Program-made: the position numbers and the translations under genes
From: Paenarthrobacter sp. GOM3
Lineage (GTDB): Bacteria; Actinomycetota; Actinomycetes; Actinomycetales; Micrococcaceae
Assembly: GCF_018215265.2 (NCBI RefSeq)
Contig: NZ_CP136562.1
Location: 4,278,001 to 4,342,000, forward strand
Direction: 5' to 3'
Length of the DNA stretch: 64,000 nucleotides
Part shown: one piece after another, positions 51,168 to 63,068 of the stretch
Position numbering within the stretch: position 1 is the stretch's first letter
Layout: every line of letters begins with the position of its first letter
The notes under the pieces: model-generated
What the model saw: the letters and a program-made list of their open reading frames with translations, nothing else
Told to the model about the DNA's origin: nothing
The model's database searches: none

Positions 51168-53639
51168 ATGGACTGTGACATCGAGCTGGAAATCGACGCC
51201 GGCTCTGCACGCGGCGAATACACGGTGCACGTGGTCCGTGCACCGGCGGGAGGGCACGCTTCGGGGGAGTTCAAGCTGGATGTGGACCGTGTACTGGACC
51301 GGCTTCCCCAGCTTGAGGCCACCGTCCTCGCCTCAGCCGTCGCTGCCCGACGGACCGCCCCGGTAGCCGAGATGGCCGTCCGCGAAGTAGGCCAGGATTT
51401 GTTCCAGGCCCTGTTCACCCGTGAAGTGTACGGAACGTACCGTGCGAGCCTGGGAGCGGCCCAGCATGCGGGGCAGCAACTCCGGGTGGTGCTGCGGCTG
51501 GCTGCGCCCGAGTTGGCCGCGATGCCCTGGGAGACGCTGTTCGATCCCGAAACGGAAACCTACTTGTGCCAAACTGAACCACTGCTCCGGCACATCCCGG
51601 CCCCTGACTACAACCAAAATCCCCTGGACGTGGCTCCCCCCATGCGCATCCTGGGAATTGTCGCCTCACCACGCGACCTCCCGGCCCTGGATGTCGCCAC
51701 GGAAAAGGACCACCTCAGCAGGGCGTTGGCCGGTCCGGCGTCGGAGGGCCGCGTGGAACTGGTCTGGGCAAAAAGCGGTACCTGGGACGATGTGCAGTCC
51801 TTGCTGCTGGCCGGCCCATGGCACGTGGTGCATTTCGTGGGCCACGGCGACTACGACTCCCGGACTGACGAGGGTCGGATCGCGCTGGTGGGGCCCGACG
51901 GCAGGGCTGCGATGGTCAGGGCAGTCAGGCTCATGGCACTGCTCAGCGTCGCATCCCCACGGCCACGGCTGGTGGTGCTCAACTCGTGTTCGTCGGGTGA
52001 AATGGGACAGTCCGACCTGTTCTCCGGGACCGCATCCGCGCTGGTCAGGAGCGGGATCGGCGCTGTGGCCGCCATGCAATTCGCCATTAGCGACTACGCG
52101 GCCATCGCCTTCGCCCACGGGTTCTACGCCGCCATAGCCAACGGCCGGACCGTGGACGAAGCCGCCCGCGTAGGCAGGATTTCGGTGATGGCCAGCCCCG
52201 ACGGCACCTTGGAATGGGTCACCCCCGCCCTCTATGTCCGGGGCGGTTCCACCCAGCTGTTCACGCTGACAGGATCACCACGCGCAACTTCCAACGCGGA
52301 AGGCACGACGACGGCGCGCGGCCCAGGCGGTCGGGCGTCAGCTTCCACTGCTCAGCCGGATGCGTTGGCCGGCCAAGCGCAAGCCAGCCAAGCGCAAGCC
52401 AGCCAGGCACACGCCGACGCTGAGCGGGCGATGAAGCGCGCCCAACTGCGTGCCCTTTACGTGCAGGCGTCGGCGGAACTCCGCGCACGGCGTTTTGAGC
52501 AGGCCGTCGAGTTGTTCGAGGATCTCCTGACCCTGGAACCCGGATACCGGGACGCTGCCGCGCTTCGCGACCATGCCCGGCAACGGCTGGAGATGGCCAA
52601 GGTCTACCGATCGGCCGTGGAAGCGGAGGAATCCGGGGATTGGTTGGCCGCGGCCGACGGTTACGCCGTGGTCCAAGGCGACCCGGAATTCCCCGAAGCA
52701 GCCGCCCGGAAGCAGGACTGCGAGCGTCGGCAACGTATTTCTGACCTGCAGGGTGAGTTGCGCTACCACTCCTCCATGGGTGCCTGGGAGACTGTGCTGG
52801 ACGTGTCCGCCGAGTTGGCCACGGCGGACCCGGCTTCGGCGGACCCTGACGGACTCGCAACCGCTGCAAGGGTTGAGATCGAGAAGAAGAAGCAAAAGGA
52901 CACACCCAAGCCTGCCGCGCCAGAGGCCGCAGCGCGCGGTTCGTACACAGCTGCATCCCAAGCCCCAGCGCAACCCCACGCCCCTCCACCCAACCGGGTC
53001 CCGGCGTCGAACGCTGCTGTTTCCGGACCCCGCACCAAGGCCGCATCGCCGCCCCTCAACTGGATGCCACTCGCATGGGGCGGCGCCGCACTGGCGGTCG
53101 CGGGCGGGCTCGGGGCGGGCTTCGCGGTCTACTTCCTCTGGTTCGACGACAACTACTGGTACGAAAGCGGCGGCGACGCTTCGCTCAGGGTGGTCTACGG
53201 TTTGATCGCACCTTTTGGATATCTCATGCTCGCGGTCGCCGGCCTTCCTGATCGCACCGTCGCGGGCCGGGTGGTCATGGCTGGCTTGGTGGTTTCCCAC
53301 GCAGTGTTCGGATTGGCTGGCCTGAACTACGCGGTGGAAGCGACGGCCGTCTACTCCAGTCTCCTCGTTGCCGGCCTGGGAATTTGGGCGGGGATCCTTG
53401 CCCTGCGTTCCCCGCCGCTGCGGACCCTGGGCTGGCTGTTGCTGCTGGCCACGGCAACCATCCCGTTCGTTTGGATCCAGGACAAGGGGACCTTCCTGGA
53501 GGAGTGGTACCGGACGCACGCCTATTTTGCCTTGGTTCAGCTCCTGGTTTTGTGCGGGGCCGGCATCGGCTTCATGGTCGCCGCGCGCCGCCTGCGTTGG
53601 TTCTCCGGAAAGGGTCAGGAACATGAGCCGGTTGGTTGA
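51168..53639 (+). CDS. CHAT-domain caspase-like protease with helical repeats and six membrane segments
   Basis: 823 aa; aagagga precedes the ATG. The CHAT domain (~70-370) has the catalytic dyad: His ~226 in VVHFVGHGDY and Cys ~274 in VVLNSCSSGE, then GIGAVAAMQFAISDYAAIAF. A low-complexity linker (~380-425) includes a tandem QAQAS repeat. Residues ~430-590 look like TPR-type helices (FEQAVELFEDLLTLEPGYRD; ESGDWLAAADGYAVVQGD). A Pro/Ala linker leads to six predicted membrane helices (~631-810). It is thus a membrane-tethered cysteine protease with a sensing or scaffold region. It overlaps the next gene by 17 bp. CHAT proteases act in regulated proteolysis and defence-related cell death. Confidence 0.85.
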   Translation: MDCDIELEIDAGSARGEYTVHVVRAPAGGHASGEFKLDVDRVLDRLPQLEATVLASAVAARRTAPVAEMAVREVGQDLFQALFTREVYGTYRASLGAAQHAGQQLRVVLRLAAPELAAMPWETLFDPETETYLCQTEPLLRHIPAPDYNQNPLDVAPPMRILGIVASPRDLPALDVATEKDHLSRALAGPASEGRVELVWAKSGTWDDVQSLLLAGPWHVVHFVGHGDYDSRTDEGRIALVGPDGRAAMVRAVRLMALLSVASPRPRLVVLNSCSSGEMGQSDLFSGTASALVRSGIGAVAAMQFAISDYAAIAFAHGFYAAIANGRTVDEAARVGRISVMASPDGTLEWVTPALYVRGGSTQLFTLTGSPRATSNAEGTTTARGPGGRASASTAQPDALAGQAQASQAQASQAHADAERAMKRAQLRALYVQASAELRARRFEQAVELFEDLLTLEPGYRDAAALRDHARQRLEMAKVYRSAVEAEESGDWLAAADGYAVVQGDPEFPEAAARKQDCERRQRISDLQGELRYHSSMGAWETVLDVSAELATADPASADPDGLATAARVEIEKKKQKDTPKPAAPEAAARGSYTAASQAPAQPHAPPPNRVPASNAAVSGPRTKAASPPLNWMPLAWGGAALAVAGGLGAGFAVYFLWFDDNYWYESGGDASLRVVYGLIAPFGYLMLAVAGLPDRTVAGRVVMAGLVVSHAVFGLAGLNYAVEATAVYSSLLVAGLGIWAGILALRSPPLRTLGWLLLLATATIPFVWIQDKGTFLEEWYRTHAYFALVQLLVLCGAGIGFMVAARRLRWFSGKGQEHEPVG

Positions 53640-53976
53640 GTTCACAACGGACGACGGCGGCACGGTGGTTGTGGAGGTCGCGAGCTCCGCGGGGAGCCTG
53701 GTCACCAGGGGCGGGGACCACGTCGGTGATTCCTCGGTGGTGTTCGCGAGGGCACAACAGACGTTCGAGCGGGCGTTGGCGCATGTCCGGCCAGCGGCCC
53801 AAGGGGTTATCGATGAGTTGCTGAGCCTCGAGAACCGGCCGGACGAGGTGAGCGTCGAGTTCGGAATCGACCTCCATGCGGAGGCGGGAGCTTTCATCGC
53901 CTCGGCCAGCACGGCATCGAACTTCAAGGTGCGGCTTACGTGGAACAAACCGGCCAACCCCAGCGCGACCAGCTAG
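53623..53976 (+). CDS. CU044_2847-type (trypsin-co-occurring domain 1-like) protein
   Basis: 117 aa; ATG at 53623, with tcagga upstream, inside the end of the CHAT gene. A short beta-rich N-terminus (VEFTTDDGGTVVVEVASS) is followed by a helix (FERALAHVRPAAQGVIDELLSL) and VSVEFGIDLHAEAGAFIAS, the pattern of TRYCO1-like proteins that accompany trypsin- or caspase-type proteases in predicted bacterial conflict systems. The coupling suggests that it binds, restrains or presents the substrate of the CHAT protease. Confidence 0.75.
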   Translation: MSRLVEFTTDDGGTVVVEVASSAGSLVTRGGDHVGDSSVVFARAQQTFERALAHVRPAAQGVIDELLSLENRPDEVSVEFGIDLHAEAGAFIASASTASNFKVRLTWNKPANPSATS

Positions 53977-54035
53977 GCCGCAGTTGGGGGGCCGGCGCCC
54001 TGTTCAACGCCACGCAGCGGCGCAACAATAAGGGT

Positions 54036-54542
54036 ATGGCTGCGGAAGATTTCAGCGGACCCATCCCCTTGGTGGTGGGAGTGCTGCCGGACCAGCATGT
54101 GGAGGTCCTCCAGACGGCACGGACCTTGGCCGAACAGCTGGGCGTGCCGCTTGTTTGTGCGTACGTGGACGAGGCCAGCTACCTCGTCGAGTGGGATCCG
54201 GCCCGTGACGCGCACCGGATGTCGTTGCACCCCGAAAAGGACCAGGCCGACGTCGAGGCGGTTCGCGGCGACTTGGGCAAGCTCATCGGCGACGCGCTGG
54301 ATGGTGGAACCGCTGACTGGACCCTGCGTCTTCTTGCCGGGGATCCTGCCCGCGCCCTCGGTCGGCTCGCGGAGGACATCAAAGCGTCGATGATCATAGT
54401 AGGTACCCCTGAGCCTGGTTTGGGGCACCGTATTTCCGAGGCCCTGAACGGCTCGGTTGCGGCTTGGCTCAGCCATCACCAGCGCCGCCCGGTGCTTATC
54501 GTGCCCCAGAAAAAGAGGCAGGAAGCGGCACATCGAAACTAA
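54036..54542 (+). CDS. Universal stress protein (UspA family)
   Basis: 168 aa; ATG at 54036 after a modest aaggg. One Usp domain: VVGVLPDQHVEVLQTARTLA at strand 1, LVCAYVDEASYL, the residues SMIIVGTPEPGLGHRISEAL and then NGSVAAWLSHH, and RRPVLIVPQ at the last strand. The ATP-binding pattern GxxxxGxGxxxxxxLNGSV is close to consensus. A link to the upstream protease pair (59-bp gap) is possible but not shown. Confidence 0.82.
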   Translation: MAAEDFSGPIPLVVGVLPDQHVEVLQTARTLAEQLGVPLVCAYVDEASYLVEWDPARDAHRMSLHPEKDQADVEAVRGDLGKLIGDALDGGTADWTLRLLAGDPARALGRLAEDIKASMIIVGTPEPGLGHRISEALNGSVAAWLSHHQRRPVLIVPQKKRQEAAHRN

Positions 54543-54849: not shown

Positions 54850-56241
54850 TCACCTTACGAAGGTGTACAGCAGCGCCGCCATTCCGAAGCCAACAATGGA
54901 CAGCACGGTTTCCAGCACGGTCCACGTCTTCAGGGTGTCCTTGACGGACATGTTGAAGTACTTGGAGATGATCCAGAACCCGCCATCGTTCACGTGGCTG
55001 GCGATGATGGAGCCGGAGGAGATGGCCACGACGATCAGTGCGAGCTGGGGCTGGGAGTAACCCGTGGCCAGGCTGGGGGCGAGGATGCCGCCCGTGGTCA
55101 CGATTGCCACCGTTGCCGAGCCCTGCGCGATGCGCATCCCTGCGCTGATCACGAACGCGGACAGGATGATCGGCAGGCCGGCCTGTGCCAGCGAATCCGC
55201 TACAGCCTTGCCCACACCGGTAGCCGACAGCACCGCTCCGAAGAACGCACCGGCGCCAACAACCAGCAGGATCATGCCCACGGGACGCAACGACGAGCCC
55301 GTGATTTCGCTGAGCTCGGCGGAGGTCATGCCGCGGCGGATACCCAACAGCCACATGGCCAGGAGCACGGCGACGGTGAGTGCGATGGCCGGGTTGCCGA
55401 AGAACTGGAGGATGTCCCGGAAAACACCGGCGGGAGCAAAGATGTTGCCGAACGTGCCGCCGAGAATAAGGATCATGGGCAGGCCGATGGCAAGCAGGAC
55501 CAGGCCGATGGAGGGTTCGTTGCCCTTGGCGGTGTCCGCTTCGGCAACAATCCGGTCCTCGGGAACTGAGACCATGACGCGCTTGCCGATGTAAGTGCCC
55601 CACAAAATACCTGAGGCGAACCACGCTGGGATACCGCAGATCAGGCCCATGAGGATGATCCAGCCAAGGTCAACGTGGAACAGTCCGGCAGCGGCCACGG
55701 GACCGGGGTGCGGCGGAAGGAAAGCGTGGGTGACCGACAGGCCTGCCAGCAGCGGCAGGGCATACAGTGCCAGCGACTTGCCGCCACGAATGGCAGCGAC
55801 GTACACCAGGGGCGCCAGGACGAAGATGCCGATATCGAAGAATACCGGGATACCCAGCACGAAGCCGGTGATGCCCATAGCCAGCGGGGTGCCCTTTTCG
55901 CCGAAGATCTTCACGAGCCTTCCCAGCAGCACTTCCGCGCCGCCGGACCGCTCGAGGATCGCGCCAAGGACGGTGCCGAGGCCAATGATCACTGTGATGT
56001 GGCCGAGGATGCCCGCGAAGCCCTTCTCAATCAGTGCGTCACTGCTCTTGGTGGCCGAACCGACCAGCGCTTCCACGGAGATCCCGCCCACCAAGGCCAC
56101 GATCACACCCGTTCCCACCAGGGCGATGAACGGCTCGAGCTTGACCTTGATGATCAGGAACAGCAGAAGGGCGATGCCTGCACCCGCCAGGAGGAGCAGG
56201 CCGGCGGTGTCGTGCCGCAGCCATTCAAGGAATTCATTCAT
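54850..56241 (-). CDS. GntP-family gluconate-type permease
   Basis: 463 aa with 12-14 hydrophobic segments. Family marks: GFAGILGHITVIIGLGTVLG, GIPVFFDIGIFVLAPLVY, THAFLPPHPGPVAAAGLF and ISAGMRIAQGSATVAIVTT. GntP carriers import gluconate and related aldonates with protons. It is the last gene of the minus half of the divergent sugar-acid cluster, 23 bp after the KDPG aldolase gene. The neighbours suggest an N-acetylated 2-amino aldonate as substrate. Confidence 0.9.
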   Translation of the reverse strand: MNEFLEWLRHDTAGLLLLAGAGIALLLFLIIKVKLEPFIALVGTGVIVALVGGISVEALVGSATKSSDALIEKGFAGILGHITVIIGLGTVLGAILERSGGAEVLLGRLVKIFGEKGTPLAMGITGFVLGIPVFFDIGIFVLAPLVYVAAIRGGKSLALYALPLLAGLSVTHAFLPPHPGPVAAAGLFHVDLGWIILMGLICGIPAWFASGILWGTYIGKRVMVSVPEDRIVAEADTAKGNEPSIGLVLLAIGLPMILILGGTFGNIFAPAGVFRDILQFFGNPAIALTVAVLLAMWLLGIRRGMTSAELSEITGSSLRPVGMILLVVGAGAFFGAVLSATGVGKAVADSLAQAGLPIILSAFVISAGMRIAQGSATVAIVTTGGILAPSLATGYSQPQLALIVVAISSGSIIASHVNDGGFWIISKYFNMSVKDTLKTWTVLETVLSIVGFGMAALLYTFVR

Positions 56242-56264
56242 GGGCGTATCTTTCTGGGTGAGTC

Positions 56265-56900
56265 CTACTTGAGGGTGCCGGTGAAGGCGGCGGCACGTGC
56301 CGCGATGTCTGCCCAGTCGCCTGCGGCAACTGCCGCGGGCGGGACTACGCTGGTGCCGCAGCAGACTGCGGCAGCACCGGCGTCGAGGTAGCTCTTGGCG
56401 TTGGAGGCATCGATGCCCCCTGAAGGCAGCAGGCGGATCCCGGGGTAGGGGCCCTGCAAGTCCTTCAAATACGCCGGTCCGAGCTGCCGGGCGGGGAAAA
56501 TCTTGACGGCGGCAGAACCCAGGTCCAGGGCCTGCGCCACCTCGGTGGGGGTCATGGCGCCGAGGCTGAAGGGGATCCCCGCAGCCGCGGCGACGGCGGC
56601 GACCTCGGGCCGGAGGCCTGGCGTCACCAGGAACTGCGCGCCGGCGTCGATCGCTGCACGGGCCTGGTCGGCGGTCATCACCGTTCCAATTCCGACGGCG
56701 GCACCATGCTCCGCTGCGGTCTCCGCCGCACGCTTGACGTGCTTGAGTGCATCCGGGGTGGTGAATGTCAGCTCAACACTGCGGATGCCGCCGTCGGCCA
56801 GTGCCCTGCAGAGATCCGCGGCGTCCGTGATGGAGGGCGCGCGGACCACGGCGAGGGTGCGGTCGGCTTCGAGCTGCTGGACGAACTCTTCGGGGGTCAT
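56265..56900 (-). CDS. eda: 2-dehydro-3-deoxy-phosphogluconate aldolase
   Basis: 211 aa, the usual size. Class-I aldolase: Schiff-base Lys in AAVKIFPARQLGP, Glu in RSVELTFTTPDAL, GIGTVMTADQARAA, and phosphate site LLPSGGIDASNAKSYLDAG. It splits KDPG into pyruvate and glyceraldehyde 3-phosphate, the end of the pathway that the KDG kinase at 60056 feeds. The ATG overlaps the stop of the deacylase gene by 4 bp. Confidence 0.92.
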   Translation of the reverse strand: MTPEEFVQQLEADRTLAVVRAPSITDAADLCRALADGGIRSVELTFTTPDALKHVKRAAETAAEHGAAVGIGTVMTADQARAAIDAGAQFLVTPGLRPEVAAVAAAAGIPFSLGAMTPTEVAQALDLGSAAVKIFPARQLGPAYLKDLQGPYPGIRLLPSGGIDASNAKSYLDAGAAAVCCGTSVVPPAAVAAGDWADIAARAAAFTGTLK

Positions 56901-58546
56901 GGGGTGCTGCTTCCTTCTCGGGTGAGGCCGTCGCTGCTGCGACGCAGGGCGCGGCCGGCGCGCGCGCCGGTGGGGTTGCCGCCGTCGATCGCTGCCGTGC
57001 CATTGACGAAGACGTACTGGATGCCGCTGGCGGCTTGGCGGGGGTTCTCAAAAGTGGCGGTATCGCGGATGGTTTCCGGATCAAAAAGCACGACGTCGGC
57101 CGCGTAGCCTTCGCGGACCAGTCCCCTGTTGTGGAGCTTGAGTCGTGCGGCAGGCCGGCCACTGAGGTGGTGGACCATTTCCTCGAGGCTCAGCAGTCCC
57201 AGGTCGCGGGAGTAGTGGCCGAGGTAGCGGGGGAACGTGCCCCAGGCGCGCGGGTGTGGCTTGGCGCCGACCAGGAGTCCGTCGCTGCCACCGGTGTGGG
57301 AGCGGTGCTTCATGATCGCCTGCACGTTTTCTTCGTGGCCCACATGCTGCAGGATGCCGGTGCCGAGGCGGTCCTCGGTGAGGATGCTCGCGAAGACGTC
57401 GAAGGGCTCCCGGCCCGTTGCGGAAGCGATATCCCTGATGGTCTTGCCCACGTAACCGGCGAGCGCCGGGTTCTGGACACCGCTGATTTCCAGGGTGTCC
57501 CACTCGGCAACCACGCCGTGGCAGCCGTCGGATCCGTAGATCTCCACGGACTCACGGATGCGCGCACGGGTTTCCGGATCTGCCAGCCGCGCCAAGGTGG
57601 CATCCGTTCCGCCGGACGAGGCCCAGCTGGGGAGGATCGCCGATAGAGTGGTGGCCCCGGGGAGGTAGGGGTAGGTGTCCAGGGTGATGTCCACGCCTTG
57701 GTCGAGCGCGGAGTCGATCAGGTCCAGGAGTTCCCCGGCGCGGCCTTTGTTCTCTGCGAAGTTCATTGTGGCGTGGGACAGGTGGAGGGCACATCCGGTG
57801 TCGCGGCTCAGCCCGATCATCTCGGCGTACGCGTCCAGCGCACCCTTGCCGTAGGAGCGGTGGTGCGGTGCGTATAAGCCACCCAGCTCCCCTACTGTCC
57901 GGCAGAGCCCGGCGAGTTCTTCGGTCTGCGCGTACATGCCCGGGGTGTAGGTCAGCCCGGAGCTCATGCCCACGGCTCCGTCCTCCATCGCTGTGCGGAT
58001 GACGTCCTGCATCTTCTGCTGTTGCTCCGAGGTGGGGTCACCCTCGGCGAAGCCCATCACCATGGCCCGGACGGTTCCCTGGGGTACCAGGTAGGCGGCG
58101 TTGGTGGCGATGCGGCCGCCGTCTTCAAGCTGATCGAGGCGGTCCAGGTACTCTCCGACCGTCCGCCAGTTGAAGGCGAAGTCGGCCGGGTTGTCGTTCC
58201 AGCCGGCGATCTTCTCCCGGACACCGGCGAGCGTGGCGTCATCCACCGGCGCATAGGAGAGCCCATCCTGGCCCAGCAGTTCCGTGGTGACGCCCTGGCT
58301 GAGCTTGGCGTAGTGCTCCTTGTTGACCAGCAGTTGCAGGTCCGAGTGCGCGTGCATGTCGATGAAACCGGGGCTGAGGACCAGTCCCGTGGCATCGATG
58401 ACACGGTCCGCGCCGGTTTCCCCGGCGGTGAGGGTCCCGGCGTCGACGATCGCGGCAATCACCGCACCATCCAGGAGGACGTCTGCGGGGCGGCGGTCCG
58501 CTCCGGTCCCGTCCACCAGGGTGGCGTTGCTGATCAGGGTCTTCAT
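56897..58546 (-). CDS. N-acyl-D-amino-acid deacylase-family amidohydrolase
   Basis: 549 aa. Amidohydrolase-superfamily metal site: GFIDMHAHSDLQLL (two His); GLYAPHHRSYGKGAL and CALHLSHATMNF give further His ligands, and GSDGLLVGAKPHPRAWGTF has the catalytic Asp region. D-aminoacylases remove an acyl group from N-acyl-D-amino acids. In this cluster an N-acetyl-2-amino aldonate such as N-acetyl-D-glucosaminate, itself an N-acetyl amino acid, is a plausible substrate; this is inference. It is coupled to the eda gene (4-bp overlap) and lies 6 bp after the PLP-enzyme gene. Confidence 0.87.
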   Translation of the reverse strand: MKTLISNATLVDGTGADRRPADVLLDGAVIAAIVDAGTLTAGETGADRVIDATGLVLSPGFIDMHAHSDLQLLVNKEHYAKLSQGVTTELLGQDGLSYAPVDDATLAGVREKIAGWNDNPADFAFNWRTVGEYLDRLDQLEDGGRIATNAAYLVPQGTVRAMVMGFAEGDPTSEQQQKMQDVIRTAMEDGAVGMSSGLTYTPGMYAQTEELAGLCRTVGELGGLYAPHHRSYGKGALDAYAEMIGLSRDTGCALHLSHATMNFAENKGRAGELLDLIDSALDQGVDITLDTYPYLPGATTLSAILPSWASSGGTDATLARLADPETRARIRESVEIYGSDGCHGVVAEWDTLEISGVQNPALAGYVGKTIRDIASATGREPFDVFASILTEDRLGTGILQHVGHEENVQAIMKHRSHTGGSDGLLVGAKPHPRAWGTFPRYLGHYSRDLGLLSLEEMVHHLSGRPAARLKLHNRGLVREGYAADVVLFDPETIRDTATFENPRQAASGIQYVFVNGTAAIDGGNPTGARAGRALRRSSDGLTREGSSTP

Positions 58547-58552
58547 GGCGTC

Positions 58553-59866
58553 CTAGAAGAAGGTATGGATGAGGTCGACAACGGTTTGCTCGCCTGTGCT
58601 GTTTGCGGATGCAGCGCCCGCGAGGACCGGAATGACGGTCCACTTGTCGAACGCGGTGCACGGGTGGGACAGGCCCAGGCGCACGACGTCGCCGGGGCGC
58701 ACAGTGGTGGTGGCGGCGTCGTAGGTCATGAAGGAATGCTGATCGTTGACGGACGTGATTTCAGCTCCGACCAGGGGCGTCATGGCATCACCCAGGGCTG
58801 GTCCGATGAGCTGCGGCTCGGGCAGCCCCTCATCGAAGGGGAGGTCACGCTTGCCGGCATCAAGGATGGCCAAGCCGGGTTCCGTCTGGGAAACAACACG
58901 GGCCCAACCGTGCATTCCGGCTGTGAACGGCTGATCCCCGTCCCGGGAGAAGGGGGAGATCCCGCGGTAAAACCCGTCGTCGTGGATGATGTAGGCGCCG
59001 CTGCGGATCATAAGGTCCACGCGCTTTTCTTCGGACGATGAGCCGTCGTTGATGCACGGCGACAGGACCGAGACCACGTCGTCAAAGTACGCGCTGCCGC
59101 CCGCGGTGAGGATCACGTCGCTGGAACCGTACAGTCCCTCGTCGAGCAACCGCTCGTGAAGCAGCCGCATCTGGGCGAGGTAACCGCGGACGGCGGCCAG
59201 GCCGGCGTCGTCCGCTGTGTGCGCGAGCGAGCCTTCGTAGCCGCTGACCCCTACCAGGCGCAGGTTCGGCGAGGCCGAAATGGCGCGGGCCACGTCCGTG
59301 GCGGCATCCACACCGCGTGCACCTGTCCTGCCGCCGTGGGCGCCGAGTTCCACCAGGACCTCCAGTACGGCATCGCTGCCGGCCAGGGTCCGGTTGATGA
59401 TGTCGACGGTGCCTAGGGAGTCGATCCAGGACAGGATCGTGGAGTCCTGGGACGCCACCCACTCGATGGCCCGTGGATCCGTGAGGCTGTTGGCGAGCTG
59501 CAGGTTCCGGAGACCGAAAGCCCGGGCCACGCGAAGCTGCGCGAAATTGGCCAGCGTGATGCCCCATGCGCCACGGTTCAACTGCTCGGCCCAGAGCTGC
59601 GGGGACATGGTGGTCTTCCCGTGCGGGGCGAGCAGCACGCCCATTTCGGCGCACCAGTTCGCGAGGCGGTCAGCGTTGGCCGTCAGCGCGTCGGCATCGA
59701 GTGTCAGCAGCGGCGTCTGGAGGTCTGCCAGTGTGTGCTTGGCGGCGAGGAAGTCCGCGTGGGTGGTCCCGTTTTCGCTTGCCGGCAGGGCTTTGTGGCG
59801 CCAGTCGAGGCGGCGTTCGGCAAGGTCCTTCACGGCGGATGCCGAGATGGCTTCGGAGGTGTTCAC
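58553..59866 (-). CDS. D-threonine aldolase/D-serine dehydratase-fold PLP enzyme (candidate D-glucosaminate dehydratase)
   Basis: 437 aa, fold-type III (alanine racemase-like). PLP-binding Lys: LLAPHGKTTMSPQLW. The second half has the metal-binding pair in LGLSHPCTAFDKW, as in D-threonine aldolase and eukaryotic-type D-serine dehydratase. Such enzymes eliminate water and ammonia, or cleave, at the alpha carbon of D-amino acids. Placed with KDG kinase, KDPG aldolase and a GntP carrier, dehydration/deamination of D-glucosaminate to 2-keto-3-deoxygluconate is the best fit (inference). It is the first gene of the minus half. Confidence 0.8.
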   Translation of the reverse strand: MNTSEAISASAVKDLAERRLDWRHKALPASENGTTHADFLAAKHTLADLQTPLLTLDADALTANADRLANWCAEMGVLLAPHGKTTMSPQLWAEQLNRGAWGITLANFAQLRVARAFGLRNLQLANSLTDPRAIEWVASQDSTILSWIDSLGTVDIINRTLAGSDAVLEVLVELGAHGGRTGARGVDAATDVARAISASPNLRLVGVSGYEGSLAHTADDAGLAAVRGYLAQMRLLHERLLDEGLYGSSDVILTAGGSAYFDDVVSVLSPCINDGSSSEEKRVDLMIRSGAYIIHDDGFYRGISPFSRDGDQPFTAGMHGWARVVSQTEPGLAILDAGKRDLPFDEGLPEPQLIGPALGDAMTPLVGAEITSVNDQHSFMTYDAATTTVRPGDVVRLGLSHPCTAFDKWTVIPVLAGAASANSTGEQTVVDLIHTFF

Positions 59867-59920
59867 GCGTTTCGTTCCCTTCGCGGTGCTGCGATAGTGC
59901 GGCTGCGGGATAGTGGCCGC

Positions 59921-59967
59921 CAGTTCATGCGTTGCGCACAGTTCATGCGTTGCGTATTTTGCAACGC
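59921..59967. promoter_or_regulatory. Operator cluster between the divergent sugar-acid operons
   Basis: CAGTTCATGCGTTGCG occurs twice (59921-59936 and 59939-59954, 18-bp period). The second copy runs into a perfect inverted repeat GCGTTGC-N7-GCAACGC (59947-59967), followed by another TTGCAA at 59971-59976. It is a likely binding site of the IclR regulator encoded at 61078. Confidence 0.6.
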
Positions 59968-60055
59968 TGGTTGCAAACCTGATGGTGATATGTCTAACAT
60001 GGTGGCGGATCGAGAGTCAAGGCCGCCTGGCGGCACAAACAAGTGCGGGAGAACG

Positions 60056-61081
60056 ATGCTTTCAGCTGTATGCGTTGGCGAAACCATGGCCATGCTTACC
60101 CCTGTCAACGCCGTTCCGCTGCATCTGGCAACCGAACTGCACTTCGGGATCGGCGGCGCTGAGTCCAACGTCGCCATGGGCCTCGCAGCCATGGGCCTGG
60201 ACACCCATTGGGTCAGCCGCGTGGGCCGCGACGGCTTCGGCACGCGCATCCTGGACGAACTCCGCGACCACTACGTGGGGGTTTCCGGCGTGGAGGTGGA
60301 CCCCGTGCGCCCCACCGGACTGTACGTCAAAGTGCCTGCCCAGGACTCGGCGCCCGACGGCGGCAGTTCAGTTTTGTACTACCGGCAAGGATCTGCGGCC
60401 TCGGCCATGGGACGCGACACGCTCTCCAACCCTGACGTGTCCTCACTACTGGAGAACGCCGCGCTCATCCATTTGAGTGGGATCACCGCGGCCCTCTCCC
60501 CCGAATGCCTCTCGCTGCTGGAAGCCATCCTGAGCGCACCCCGGAACGGCCGCACCATCAGCTTCGACGTCAACTGGCGTTCCGCCTTGTGGGCCGGCCA
60601 GGACCGCTCGGTCTTGCAGCGATTGGCCAACCTGGCCGACGTGGTGCTGGTGGGCAAGGACGAAGCCGAGCACGCCTTCGGCACCACCGACGAAGCCGAA
60701 CTCCGCCGCATGATGCCGGACCCGGACGTGTTGGTCATCAAGAACGAGGCGATCAGCGCCATCGCACTCACCCGTTCGAGCGCTGACCCGGGCGGCACCC
60801 GGGAAGAGGTACCCGCATTGTCGGTGGCCGTCGTCGAGCCTGTAGGTGCCGGCGACTCGTTCGCCGCCGGTTACCTCAGCGGCATGCTGTTCGGACTCGG
60901 CCAAAAGGAGAGCCTGCGCAGGGGCCATGTTGCCGCCGCCTGCACCCTGACCGTCCACGGCGACCGCGGCCCGCTGCCCGACGCCGCCGAGCTCGCAGCC
61001 ATCCTCGATTCTTCGGATGACGCCTGGGCTGCTATCCATGTTGAAGACGGACAATTCAGCAAACGGAGCGTGACACCTTGA
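60056..61081 (+). CDS. kdgK: 2-keto-3-deoxygluconate kinase (PfkB family)
   Basis: 341 aa; the ATG at 60056 has gggaga. PfkB signatures: substrate-side FGIGGAESNVAMGLAAMG, GRDGFGTRILDEL, and the catalytic EPVGAGDSFAAGYLSG with anion hole and base Asp. FDVNWRSALW is typical of KDG kinases and sugar-acid kinases. It makes KDPG for the aldolase encoded at 56265. The TGA overlaps the TTG start of the IclR gene. Confidence 0.87.
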   Translation: MLSAVCVGETMAMLTPVNAVPLHLATELHFGIGGAESNVAMGLAAMGLDTHWVSRVGRDGFGTRILDELRDHYVGVSGVEVDPVRPTGLYVKVPAQDSAPDGGSSVLYYRQGSAASAMGRDTLSNPDVSSLLENAALIHLSGITAALSPECLSLLEAILSAPRNGRTISFDVNWRSALWAGQDRSVLQRLANLADVVLVGKDEAEHAFGTTDEAELRRMMPDPDVLVIKNEAISAIALTRSSADPGGTREEVPALSVAVVEPVGAGDSFAAGYLSGMLFGLGQKESLRRGHVAAACTLTVHGDRGPLPDAAELAAILDSSDDAWAAIHVEDGQFSKRSVTP

Positions 61082-61839
61082 GCCAGAGCCTCATGCGGGC
61101 CATCGACCTGCTCGGCGAACTCGCCGCTAAACCCGCAACCCTGGACGAGCTCGCGTCCAAGGCCGCCGTGCACAAAACCACCGTGATGCGGCTCCTGCAT
61201 GCCATGGAGGAGAAACGCTTCGTGGTCCGCGACGAGGACCAGCGGTTCATGCTCGGCTCCAAGCTGTTCGAACTGTCCTCGCTGGCGCTGGAGCAGCGGG
61301 ACATCCGCAAGGTCGCGCACCCCCACCTGGCCGAGCTCAACGGAAAAACCGGGCACACTGTGCACCTGGCCGCCTTCGAAGGAAATGAGGTGGTGTACAT
61401 CGACAAGTTCGAGTCGCACCACCCCGTCCGCATGTACTCGCGCATCGGCCTGACTGCATCGTTGCACTCGGCCGCCGTGTCCAAAGTCCTCCTCGCCGAT
61501 ATGCCGCGCAGCCGGCAGGAAAAGATCGCGGCGGGGCTGGACTACATCAAAGTTACCGAGAACACTTTGACTTCGCCGGAGGCCTTGCTGGCCGAACTTG
61601 AGCGGGTCAAGGACCAAGGCTGGGCCCACGACAACGCCGAGCACGAAGCTTTCGTGCATTGCATCGCGACCCCCATCCGCGATGCCAGCGGCGCCGTCGT
61701 AGCCGCAGCCTCTTGTTCGGTACCGGTAGTCATGCTCAGCTATGAAGGCCTGCTTGAGCTGCTGCCCGACCTCAAAGCCAGCACCGAGGCCATCTCCAAC
61801 GACCTCGGCTGGATCAGCCACGAAAGGAACTCAGCATGA
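61078..61839 (+). CDS. IclR-family regulator of the sugar-acid cluster
   Basis: 253 aa; TTG start at 61078 overlapping the kinase stop, with acggag upstream. The winged helix is at the very N-terminus (MRAIDLLGELAAKPATLDEL; AAVHKTTVMRLLHAMEEKRF). The effector domain has YSRIGLTASLHSAAVSKVLLAD and WAHDNAEHEAFVHCIATPI. Relatives such as KdgR-type IclR proteins respond to 2-keto-3-deoxygluconate; the same effector is inferred here. It is co-transcribed with the kinase and RidA genes. Confidence 0.87.
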   Translation: MSQSLMRAIDLLGELAAKPATLDELASKAAVHKTTVMRLLHAMEEKRFVVRDEDQRFMLGSKLFELSSLALEQRDIRKVAHPHLAELNGKTGHTVHLAAFEGNEVVYIDKFESHHPVRMYSRIGLTASLHSAAVSKVLLADMPRSRQEKIAAGLDYIKVTENTLTSPEALLAELERVKDQGWAHDNAEHEAFVHCIATPIRDASGAVVAAASCSVPVVMLSYEGLLELLPDLKASTEAISNDLGWISHERNSA

Positions 61840-62240
61840 GTGAAAAGACCGTAGTACTGACCGAAAACGCCCCCGCCCCGGCGCACGTATTCTCCCAGGG
61901 CATCAAGAAGGGCGGCATGTTCCAGGTCTCCGGCCAGGGACCCATGGACCCCGCCACCAACCAGTACATCGGCGAAGGCGACGTCCGCGTCCAGACCCGT
62001 CGCACCCTGGACAACGTCAAGGCCATTCTCGAAGCCGGCGGGTCCTCCGTTGAAGACGTCCTCATGTTCCGCGTCTACCTCACCACCCGCGACGACTTCG
62101 CCGCCATGAACGAGGTCTACGGCGAGTTCATTCGCGAGAACGTCCCCAGCGGCCAGCTGCCCAGCCGCACCACGGTGTTCGTGGACCTGCCGCACGAGGT
62201 CATGCTGGTGGAGATCGACGCCCTGGCCGTCACGGCCTAG
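61836..62240 (+). CDS. RidA-family enamine/imine deaminase
   Basis: 134 aa. The ATG overlaps the IclR stop (ATGA). Unlike the Rid protein at 16438, it keeps the carboxylate-binding Arg (LPSRTTVFVDLP), followed by MLVEIDALAV. HVFSQGIKKGGMFQVSGQGP and VKAILEAGGSSVEDVLMFRV complete the fold. RidA proteins hydrolyse reactive enamine/imine products of PLP dehydratases, which fits the PLP enzyme of the divergent half of the cluster. Confidence 0.9.
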   Translation: MSEKTVVLTENAPAPAHVFSQGIKKGGMFQVSGQGPMDPATNQYIGEGDVRVQTRRTLDNVKAILEAGGSSVEDVLMFRVYLTTRDDFAAMNEVYGEFIRENVPSGQLPSRTTVFVDLPHEVMLVEIDALAVTA

Positions 62241-62339: not shown

Positions 62340-63068
62340 CTACCTTTGAAAGCGAAGTTTCCACGGCGTGAGCGCGGACTCCAACTGCTCGCGGAGATTC
62401 ATCTTGGAAGCACCTTCCACGCGTTCTTCAAAGTGGATGGGTACCTCGGCGATCTTCAGTCCCTGACGGACGGCCCGGTGGTTCATCTCTACCTGGAATG
62501 AGTAGCCATCGCTGCGAACGGTTGCGACGTCAATCCGGTTCAAGGCATCAGCCGTCCAGGCTTTGAACCCCGCCGTTGCGTCCTTGATCTTCAAGCCCAG
62601 GATCGCACTCACATAGAAGTTGGCCCAAGCCGAGAGTGCCTTGCGATGCCACGGCCATTCCGCGGCCGTAGACCCGCCGGCGACATAGCGCGAGCCGGTG
62701 ACCAGCGCGGCCCCGGAGGTGCGGATCCGGTCAAGCATCGTGGGGATGGCCGAGACGGGGTGGGAGAGGTCTGCGTCCATTTGGATGACAACGTCCGAGT
62801 TCTCGGCCAAGGCCTTGGTCATTCCTGCGACATAAGCCCGTCCCAGCCCATCTTTTTCTTTGCGGTGCAGGACGGACACGTTCCCCTTGGAATCCGATGC
62901 CAGTTGGTCAGCCACCGCCCCGGTGCCATCGGGAGAACTGTCATCCACTACCAGGATATTGAGATTCGTGATCCCAAGTGCATCGAGCTGGGCAACAAGA
63001 ACCGGCAAGTTCTCCCGCTCATTGTAGGTAGGCACAACAATGGTGATTTTCGGATTTTCTGCAGTCAA
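62340..63068 (-). CDS. Polyprenol-phosphate mannosyltransferase (Dpm1/Ppm1-like)
   Basis: 242 aa; TTG start at 63068 with gggga about 12 nt upstream. GT2 family: IVVPTYNERENLPVLVAQL, ILVVDDSSPDGTG, the metal/nucleotide motif QMDADLSHP, GSRYVAGGSTAAEWPWHRK and GFKAWTADAL. It transfers mannose from GDP-mannose to polyprenyl phosphate on the inner face of the membrane, a donor for lipoglycans and protein O-mannosylation. There is no C-terminal membrane domain, as in the soluble single-domain type. Confidence 0.9.
   Translation of the reverse strand: MTAENPKITIVVPTYNERENLPVLVAQLDALGITNLNILVVDDSSPDGTGAVADQLASDSKGNVSVLHRKEKDGLGRAYVAGMTKALAENSDVVIQMDADLSHPVSAIPTMLDRIRTSGAALVTGSRYVAGGSTAAEWPWHRKALSAWANFYVSAILGLKIKDATAGFKAWTADALNRIDVATVRSDGYSFQVEMNHRAVRQGLKIAEVPIHFEERVEGASKMNLREQLESALTPWKLRFQR

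Follow-up and report, generated by a model that had tools for sequence, protein, structure and literature searches.

The closest described system to the gene cluster considered here is the ong pathway of Pseudoalteromonas prydzensis, which degrades N-acetyl-D-glucosaminate (GlcNAc1A), the C1-oxidized end of chitin cut by lytic polysaccharide monooxygenases (LPMOs). The GH20 enzyme OngA releases GlcNAc1A from GlcNAc-GlcNAc1A, OngB deacetylates it, OngC deaminates the product to 2-keto-3-deoxygluconate (KDG) and KdgK phosphorylates KDG; this chemistry was demonstrated by knockouts and enzymes up to KDG-6-phosphate (PMC9537276). The RidA protein OngD is essential, its role being unknown to its authors. 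The ong regulator is of the MurR/RpiR type, the inner-membrane importer is an SSS symporter and the lpmo gene of P. prydzensis is not under OngR (PMC9537276). The organisms listed with a complete ong pathway are Gammaproteobacteria and one betaproteobacterium (PMC9537276); for Aeromonas, the authors of PMC11653859 state in an excerpt of that paper that they could not confirm the route. Here we describe seven genes at positions 54850..62240 of a 64,000-nucleotide stretch (the window) of the genome of the actinobacterium Paenarthrobacter sp. GOM3, which judging from gene families, synteny and a conserved palindrome are likely to catabolise GlcNAc1A. The route itself is not new, as the ong pathway has been known since 2022. 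What appears new is its actinobacterial form, whose deacetylase lineage, carrier, regulator and candidate regulon are its own: among the open-licence PMC matches listed (titles and abstract starts) we found no description of this form and no actinobacterial GlcNAc1A or glucosaminate pathway.

Gene content and distribution of the cluster

The cluster consists of seven uninterrupted long open reading frames (ORFs). The genes for a pyridoxal phosphate (PLP) enzyme, a deacylase, Eda and GntP are read leftwards and those for KdgK, IclR and RidA rightwards. According to their coordinates the genes overlap by 4 bases at Eda/deacylase, KdgK/IclR and IclR/RidA and are spaced by 6 bases at PLP enzyme/deacylase and 23 bases at Eda/GntP, and because of these overlapping or near-abutting ends both divergent operons are probably coupled. 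The ORFs, their profile matches and their coordinates thus bear out the initial annotation, which had named these seven genes in two tight divergent operons.

The GntP-family permease (54850..56241, minus strand; PF02447, 415.8 bits) scored 373.5 bits with the gluconate:H+ symporter model TIGR00791, above the curated cut-off of 292.75; it is an aldonate-type carrier and the probable importer of an N-acetylated amino sugar acid. Eda (56265..56900, minus strand), an aldolase for 2-keto-3-deoxy-6-phosphogluconate (KDPG) and 2-keto-4-hydroxyglutarate (KHG) that would catalyse the last step, reached 189.2 bits with TIGR01182 (curated cut-off 156.05). The probable KDG kinase (60056..61081, plus strand, the start being taken as ATG 60056) is a PfkB sugar kinase (PF00294, 164.9 bits). 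The RidA-family protein (61836..62240, plus strand; PF01042, Ribonuc_L-PSP/RidA) is a probable enamine/imine hydrolase helper which fell slightly below the TIGR00004 cut-off (105.5 against 106.25 bits). The arginine typical of RidA is retained in the alignment, as had been noted before.

The fold-III PLP enzyme (58553..59866, minus strand) combines PF14031 (D-ser_dehydrat) with PF01168 (Ala_racemase_N), and among solved structures the D-serine deaminase 3GWQ is the closest to it in sequence. Its motifs PHGKT and SHPCxxFDK are common to OngC and 3GWQ, and it has the Schiff-base lysine (Lys84) and the metal pair (His401-x-Cys403) of the D-serine dehydratase type. AxDTA (PDB 4V15) has SHVD at this place, and the His-x-Asp metal pair of D-threonine aldolases is not found in the cluster enzyme. 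The metal handles the beta-hydroxyl, its ligands being His and Cys in the dehydratase and His and Asp in the aldolase (excerpt of PMC4401734). On the His-x-Cys pair we reject a D-threonine aldolase, and dehydratase-type elimination is the better reading; this qualifies the initial annotation, which had a D-threonine-aldolase-fold PLP enzyme here. The protein is probably a D-glucosaminate dehydratase/deaminase. OngC is a distant relative (30.7% identity over 401 amino acids) which grouped with 3GWQ in a tree, where its long branch was flagged.

For the remaining proteins the ong cluster of Pseudoalteromonas sp. CF6-2 served as the reference. Identities were 29.9% for deacylase and OngB, 31.7% over 104 amino acids for RidA and OngD, and 29.3% over 184 amino acids for KdgK; GntP and IclR had no counterpart in that cluster at 1e-3. 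Both systems unite a deacetylase, a fold-III PLP deaminase, a KDG kinase and a RidA protein in one locus (for kinase and RidA the likeness is at family level), both include a GH20 hexosaminidase and both leave the LPMO gene outside the control of the cluster regulator; some ong clusters also possess kdgA. The window differs in having GntP instead of an SSS symporter and IclR instead of a MurR/RpiR regulator, in its GH20 gene, which is unlinked whereas OngA is encoded in the ong locus, and in belonging to the Actinomycetota and not to the Proteobacteria. Because of the importer, the regulator and the different clade and residues of the deacylase, the window cluster is, from its sequence, not an ong cluster.

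We infer every reaction, and also the substrate, the residues with which OngB reads its substrate not being conserved in the cluster deacylase. GntP would import GlcNAc1A, and the amidohydrolase would cleave off acetate in the cytoplasm. The PLP enzyme with its metal would then remove water from D-glucosaminate, giving an enamine and subsequently KDG and ammonia, and RidA may speed the hydrolysis of the enamine. KdgK would convert KDG to KDPG, which Eda would split into pyruvate and glyceraldehyde-3-phosphate. Such a sequence from import to aldol cleavage had been proposed in the initial annotation, where the ong pathway was not named, and it gains support from the ong parallel and from the palindromes in Streptomyces described below.

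A genome scan for the PLP enzyme yielded 18 loci, 15 from Paenarthrobacter/Arthrobacter and three from Nocardia. The seven-gene arrangement was identical in 14 of the 15 (L001-L014), the exception being Arthrobacter silviterrae, and in Nocardia transvalensis; the other two Nocardia loci had a PLP relative only. The full set was also present in G278, a genome from the class of Streptomyces, and on a Tsukamurella plasmid. Because the same arrangement recurs across Micrococcaceae, Nocardia, G278 and Tsukamurella, the grouping goes beyond chance. In A. silviterrae (L017, 8259-12010) genes for the PLP enzyme, KdgK, Eda and IclR occur without a deacylase match, which perhaps reflects a route for free D-glucosaminate.

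Among 396 genomes sampled from the phylum 42 had a deacylase match at 1e-60. These included 11 Streptomyces genomes (6.1-9.9 Mb), all of which have the match by definition, and the prevalence in Streptomyces cannot be read from this number because the 334 match-free genomes of the sample are not itemised. PLP enzyme, deacylase, IclR and RidA genes were together in all 11 Streptomyces clusters, KdgK in 10 and GntP in eight, and Eda was in none of these cluster stretches of 18-19 kb. The sole Streptomyces cluster without KdgK belongs to G352 (L060, L107, L112), also the sole genome with a weak best match to PF01081, so that the two losses coincide (n=11). In the family of Paenarthrobacter GOM3 the deacylase was matched at 1e-120 in 23 of 197 genomes, one of these matches (G488) being just 40% identical. 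Within the window's own genus the deacylase occurs in three of 12 listed genomes, and the cluster is therefore an accessory trait there. The deacylase and GntP matches of G538 (L167, 5140-8781) are each in two pieces, representing decayed or misread genes.

A deacylase lineage distinct from OngB

The deacylase (56897..58546, minus strand) is a D-aminoacylase-like amidohydrolase (Amidohydro_3; PF07969, 140.2 bits) and probably a deacetylase. It shares the D-aminoacylase superfamily with OngB (PDB 9KB1; excerpt of PMC12017989). The residue positions given in that excerpt were compared across 29 cluster deacylases (window, L001-L015 and L020-L032; L019 and L061, repeat genomes of the window and L032, were left out), aligned together with PpOngB, PDB 9G5M, AfDam and BbDam. 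In all 29, Cys97 of OngB is replaced by Asp (Asp94 of the window protein, within GQDG), Glu226 by Tyr, Lys254 by Thr, Leu116 by Gly and Ser292 by Thr; the same excerpt gives Thr at 292 for D-aminoacylases. His68, His70, Tyr194, His222, His252, Tyr285, Asp368 and Arg379 (OngB numbering) are retained throughout. With Asp at the Cys position in 29/29, the Cys/His/His metal site of subtype V amidohydrolases is not present, but both His and the catalytic Asp are. Gln298 of OngB was not reliably alignable because the cluster deacylases have a longer insertion. A more distant relative, L033 from locus L062, has Asp, Tyr and His at positions 97, 226 and 254; Asp at 97 recurs in the distant rows L037 and L043, whose residues at 226 and 254 are different.

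A quick maximum-likelihood tree was based on 37 of the 52 alignment rows, 16 cluster deacylases among them. These 16 joined with a support of 95 in the SH-like approximate likelihood ratio test (SH-aLRT), or 98 including L033, and OngB, 9G5M, AfDam, BbDam and one other row formed a separate set (SH-aLRT 98). Residues and tree together rule out that the deacylase be filed as OngB and place it, with its longer insertion, in a lineage of its own, as far as sequences can tell. If both lineages deacetylate GlcNAc1A, this activity would have arisen twice. The protein of PDB 9G5M/9GV8, whose deposited name is 'Amidohydrolase family protein', clusters with PpOngB (99), and its Ser-Ser-Ser...Gln pattern matches the GlcNAc1A deacetylases. 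A structure predicted for the cluster deacylase from 28 sequences was too poor (mean predicted local distance difference test score 56.7) and was not used.

Locus L062, from a genome of another class of the phylum (G370), contains a deacylase relative of 49% identity beside RidA, Eda, a KdgK-like PfkB kinase and an ammonia-lyase resembling DgaE, whose 205.6 bits fall short of the equivalog cut-off (600). It also encodes two sugar-acid dehydratases of the enolase (mandelate-racemase) type, as well as a sugar-binding protein that has neighbours of the ATP-binding cassette (ABC) type, and an exact copy of the palindrome described below lies between the binding-protein and IclR genes. DgaE-type lyases likewise turn an amino sugar acid into a 2-keto-3-deoxy sugar acid, but they belong to a SelA-type family and not to fold III, act on a phosphorylated substrate and are not encoded in the window. 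From this gene content the deacylase accompanies predicted steps of the KDG/KDPG type also in a locus whose PLP lyase belongs to a different family. Two deacylase relatives are present in L062 (4773-18075), and this locus possibly represents another route for amino sugar acids.

A palindrome shared with unlinked genes in Streptomyces

The divergent promoter between the PLP enzyme and KdgK genes contains the palindrome GTTGC-N7-GCAAC (59949..59965), which is overlapped by a second inverted repeat, TTGCAAC-N4-GTTGCAA (59959..59976). In 28 divergent promoters (window, 14 Micrococcaceae, G278, 11 Streptomyces and N. transvalensis) the palindrome was exact in 27 and had one mismatch in N. transvalensis, its seven central bases being variable. 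Outside this set there was one mismatch in Tsukamurella and in G491, two in A. silviterrae and G538 and four in G257 (L061), and the two PLP-only Nocardia loci showed two and three. The palindrome is the probable operator of the IclR-family regulator (61078..61839, plus strand), whose nearest named model is KdgR; we infer this pairing as well as the inducer, which may be KDG or a neighbouring metabolite. Near the palindrome, the divergent promoters of the window (59990-60000) and G491 (L170, 6076-6086) contain ATGTCTAACAT and ATGTTAGACAT, respectively, which might serve as a promoter element or as another site. Another palindrome of this type lies in the window's genome (L165, 4775-4791; C1:4099274) near the start of an ORF that by eye resembles a major facilitator superfamily transporter, with another IclR-like gene, likewise recognised by eye, in the locus.

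A strict form, CGTTGC-N7-GCAACG, was derived from the cluster palindromes only, before other sites were known. Its occurrences in the 11 Streptomyces genomes numbered 13, as against five for the reversed control: six in clusters, four at unlinked eda genes, one at a GH20/ABC operon and two elsewhere. Four of the seven non-cluster places are thus just upstream of KDPG aldolase genes, which were located afterwards. The palindrome stands 63-115 nt before the profile start of the best-scoring PF01081 place in 10 of the 11 genomes (five exact, five with one mismatch), and the other six of the 16 PF01081 places, including the single weak one of G352, had no palindrome at up to one mismatch. In G107 it precedes an operon of a sugar-binding protein (SBP), two permeases and a GH20 hexosaminidase. 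Each of the 11 Streptomyces genomes encodes a counterpart of this GH20 enzyme (64-76% identity, G107 itself aside), and the window's genome has one with the same ABC genes (52-63%). All five complete SBP-PermA-PermB-GH20 operons of Streptomyces have the palindrome (two exact, three with one mismatch), at a distance of 29-62 nt from the downstream SBP start as deduced from the alignment; the contig of G161 breaks off. One of five transporter-less Streptomyces GH20 genes has an exact copy 143 nt upstream and another a one-mismatch copy about 1 kb upstream.

The refined pattern YGTTGCR-N5-YGCAACR was found at 18 places in the 11 genomes (10 cluster, five eda, three GH20 gene or its ABC operon) and nowhere else, with none in G128 and one place for the reversed control. 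Since the refinement followed the discovery of these sites and the genomes are akin to one another, 18/18 shows selectivity and is no independent test. Random 381-base windows of the Streptomyces loci, true sites included, contained the palindrome at up to one mismatch in 154 of 4002 cases. Stray one-mismatch copies occur outside pathway promoters, so such sites are weaker evidence than exact ones. The shared palindrome reads as a link of the cluster to unlinked eda and GH20 genes, in a putative route from oxidized chito-oligosaccharide via N-acetylglucosaminate and KDG to KDPG. The operator would add eda and the GH20 hexosaminidase to the cluster, together with an ABC importer in about half of the genomes, and the hexosaminidase would free GlcNAc1A from GlcNAc-GlcNAc1A.

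Source and identity of the substrate

AA10 LPMOs are encoded in all 11 Streptomyces genomes; for S. coelicolor, an excerpt of PMC10067821 gives seven putative LPMOs, four of them grouping with chitin-oxidizing ones. The window's genome has two GH20 genes. No AA10 and no GH18 match was found in it (GH19 was not searched for), which rules out an LPMO or GH18 chitinase of its own as the substrate source; the substrate is probably scavenged. In the window's family the deacylase occurred in five of eight LPMO genomes compared with 18 of 189 others (one-sided Fisher 0.0006, uncorrected for kinship), the three LPMO genera having it in 3/3, 2/3 and 0/2 of their LPMO genomes. All three LPMO genomes sampled of genus g261 (G538, G491 and G508) have an AA10 gene about 18-40 kb from the deacylase gene.

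Besides the lack of AA10 and GH18 matches just mentioned, several observations weigh against GlcNAc1A as the substrate or against the proposed regulon. Cys97, Glu226, Lys254 and Ser292 of OngB are all replaced in the cluster deacylase. The Streptomyces coelicolor deacetylase Sco4986 has reportedly been assayed on N-acetyl-D-amino acids, and this would count here if that protein were the orthologue. In the phylum sample, deacylases with 33-41% identity mostly had no other cluster gene within 1.5 kb on each side; two distant ones had a distant PLP match nearby, one of these also RidA, and one on a Rhodovastum plasmid adjoins a diaminopropionate ammonia-lyase. The kinase scored below both KDG kinase equivalog cut-offs (NF040938, 145.8 against 400; NF052444, 91.8 against 400), and the regulator scored below that of its best NCBIfam model, KdgR (181.4 against 275). 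With nine places in the window's 4.46 Mb genome, fewer than the 28 of the reversed control, the palindrome alone is not selective there, and the orthologous GH20/ABC operon of this genome has just a one-mismatch palindrome 209 nt away. Three of the five transporter-less Streptomyces GH20 genes have no palindrome. Nine one-mismatch copies occur outside pathway promoters in 343 kb of Streptomyces loci, and the unrelated ong locus has three inside genes. Finally, none of 20 LPMO upstream stretches (20 of 50 listed AA10 places) contained the palindrome at up to one mismatch, which speaks against LPMO promoters as regulon members.

The degradation of another N-acylated 2-amino-2-deoxy-aldonic acid, such as N-acetyl-D-galactosaminate or one with another acyl group, ending in KDPG or 2-keto-3-deoxy-6-phosphogalactonate (KDPGal), is unlikely though the strongest of the alternatives. 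It would fit the loss of those residues by which OngB recognises the GlcNAc1A hydroxyls, and the NCBIfam model nearest to the kinase is a bifunctional KDG/KDGal kinase, the score being below its cut-off. However, the aldolase reached just 111.7 bits as a KDPGal aldolase compared with its 189.2 bits as Eda, and palindrome-sharing GH20 genes and AA10 LPMOs in the same Streptomyces genomes indicate chitin. We consider it quite improbable that the cluster serves ordinary N-acetyl-D-amino acids (D-Ser, D-Thr) with kinase and aldolase as hitch-hikers, as the family names D-aminoacylase and D-serine deaminase and the activity of OngC on D-Ser and D-Thr (PMC9537276) might suggest: the carrier is of the aldonate type, 10 of the 11 Streptomyces clusters retain KdgK, the unlinked eda has the palindrome in 10 of 11 genomes and the KdgK-less G352 also lacks a high-scoring eda. 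Least credible is the use of free D-glucosaminate with the amidohydrolase opening a lactam or lactone or having some other target, for which the deacylase-free locus of A. silviterrae and the altered metal site could be cited, because the genes for deacylase and PLP enzyme are neighbours both in the seven-gene clusters and in the 11 Streptomyces clusters, and because deacetylation is proven for OngB, a member of the same superfamily.

The genes flanking the cluster belong to other families (Usp, 53940-54542; glycosyltransferase, 62340-63068), and no GH20 was detected among the window genes scanned by profile. A sigma-70-type promoter scan found none, the six terminator-like sites of the whole cluster are near the shuffle mean of 4.8, and the stretch 3' of GntP folded as a hairpin with a z of -0.90. 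Elsewhere in the window (51168-53639) is a long ORF which, by eye, has a CHAT-like N-terminal half followed by repeats and membrane segments.

GlcNAc1A remains the likeliest substrate. By a modest balance of the evidence, Actinomycetota including Streptomyces may possess their own pathway for this LPMO-made sugar acid, with a deacetylase independent of OngB that has an Asp-His-His metal site; in Streptomyces the route from uptake of oxidized chitobiose (ABC/GH20) to KDPG cleavage would form one IclR regulon via GTTGC-N7-GCAAC. The oxidation of chitin by LPMOs is known in Streptomyces, and the full route for the oxidized end has been listed for Proteobacteria alone (PMC9537276). For soil actinobacteria the cluster offers genes that can be put directly to the test, along with a candidate operator and regulon; it possibly also reveals a second, differently built deacetylase lineage within the same kind of pathway.

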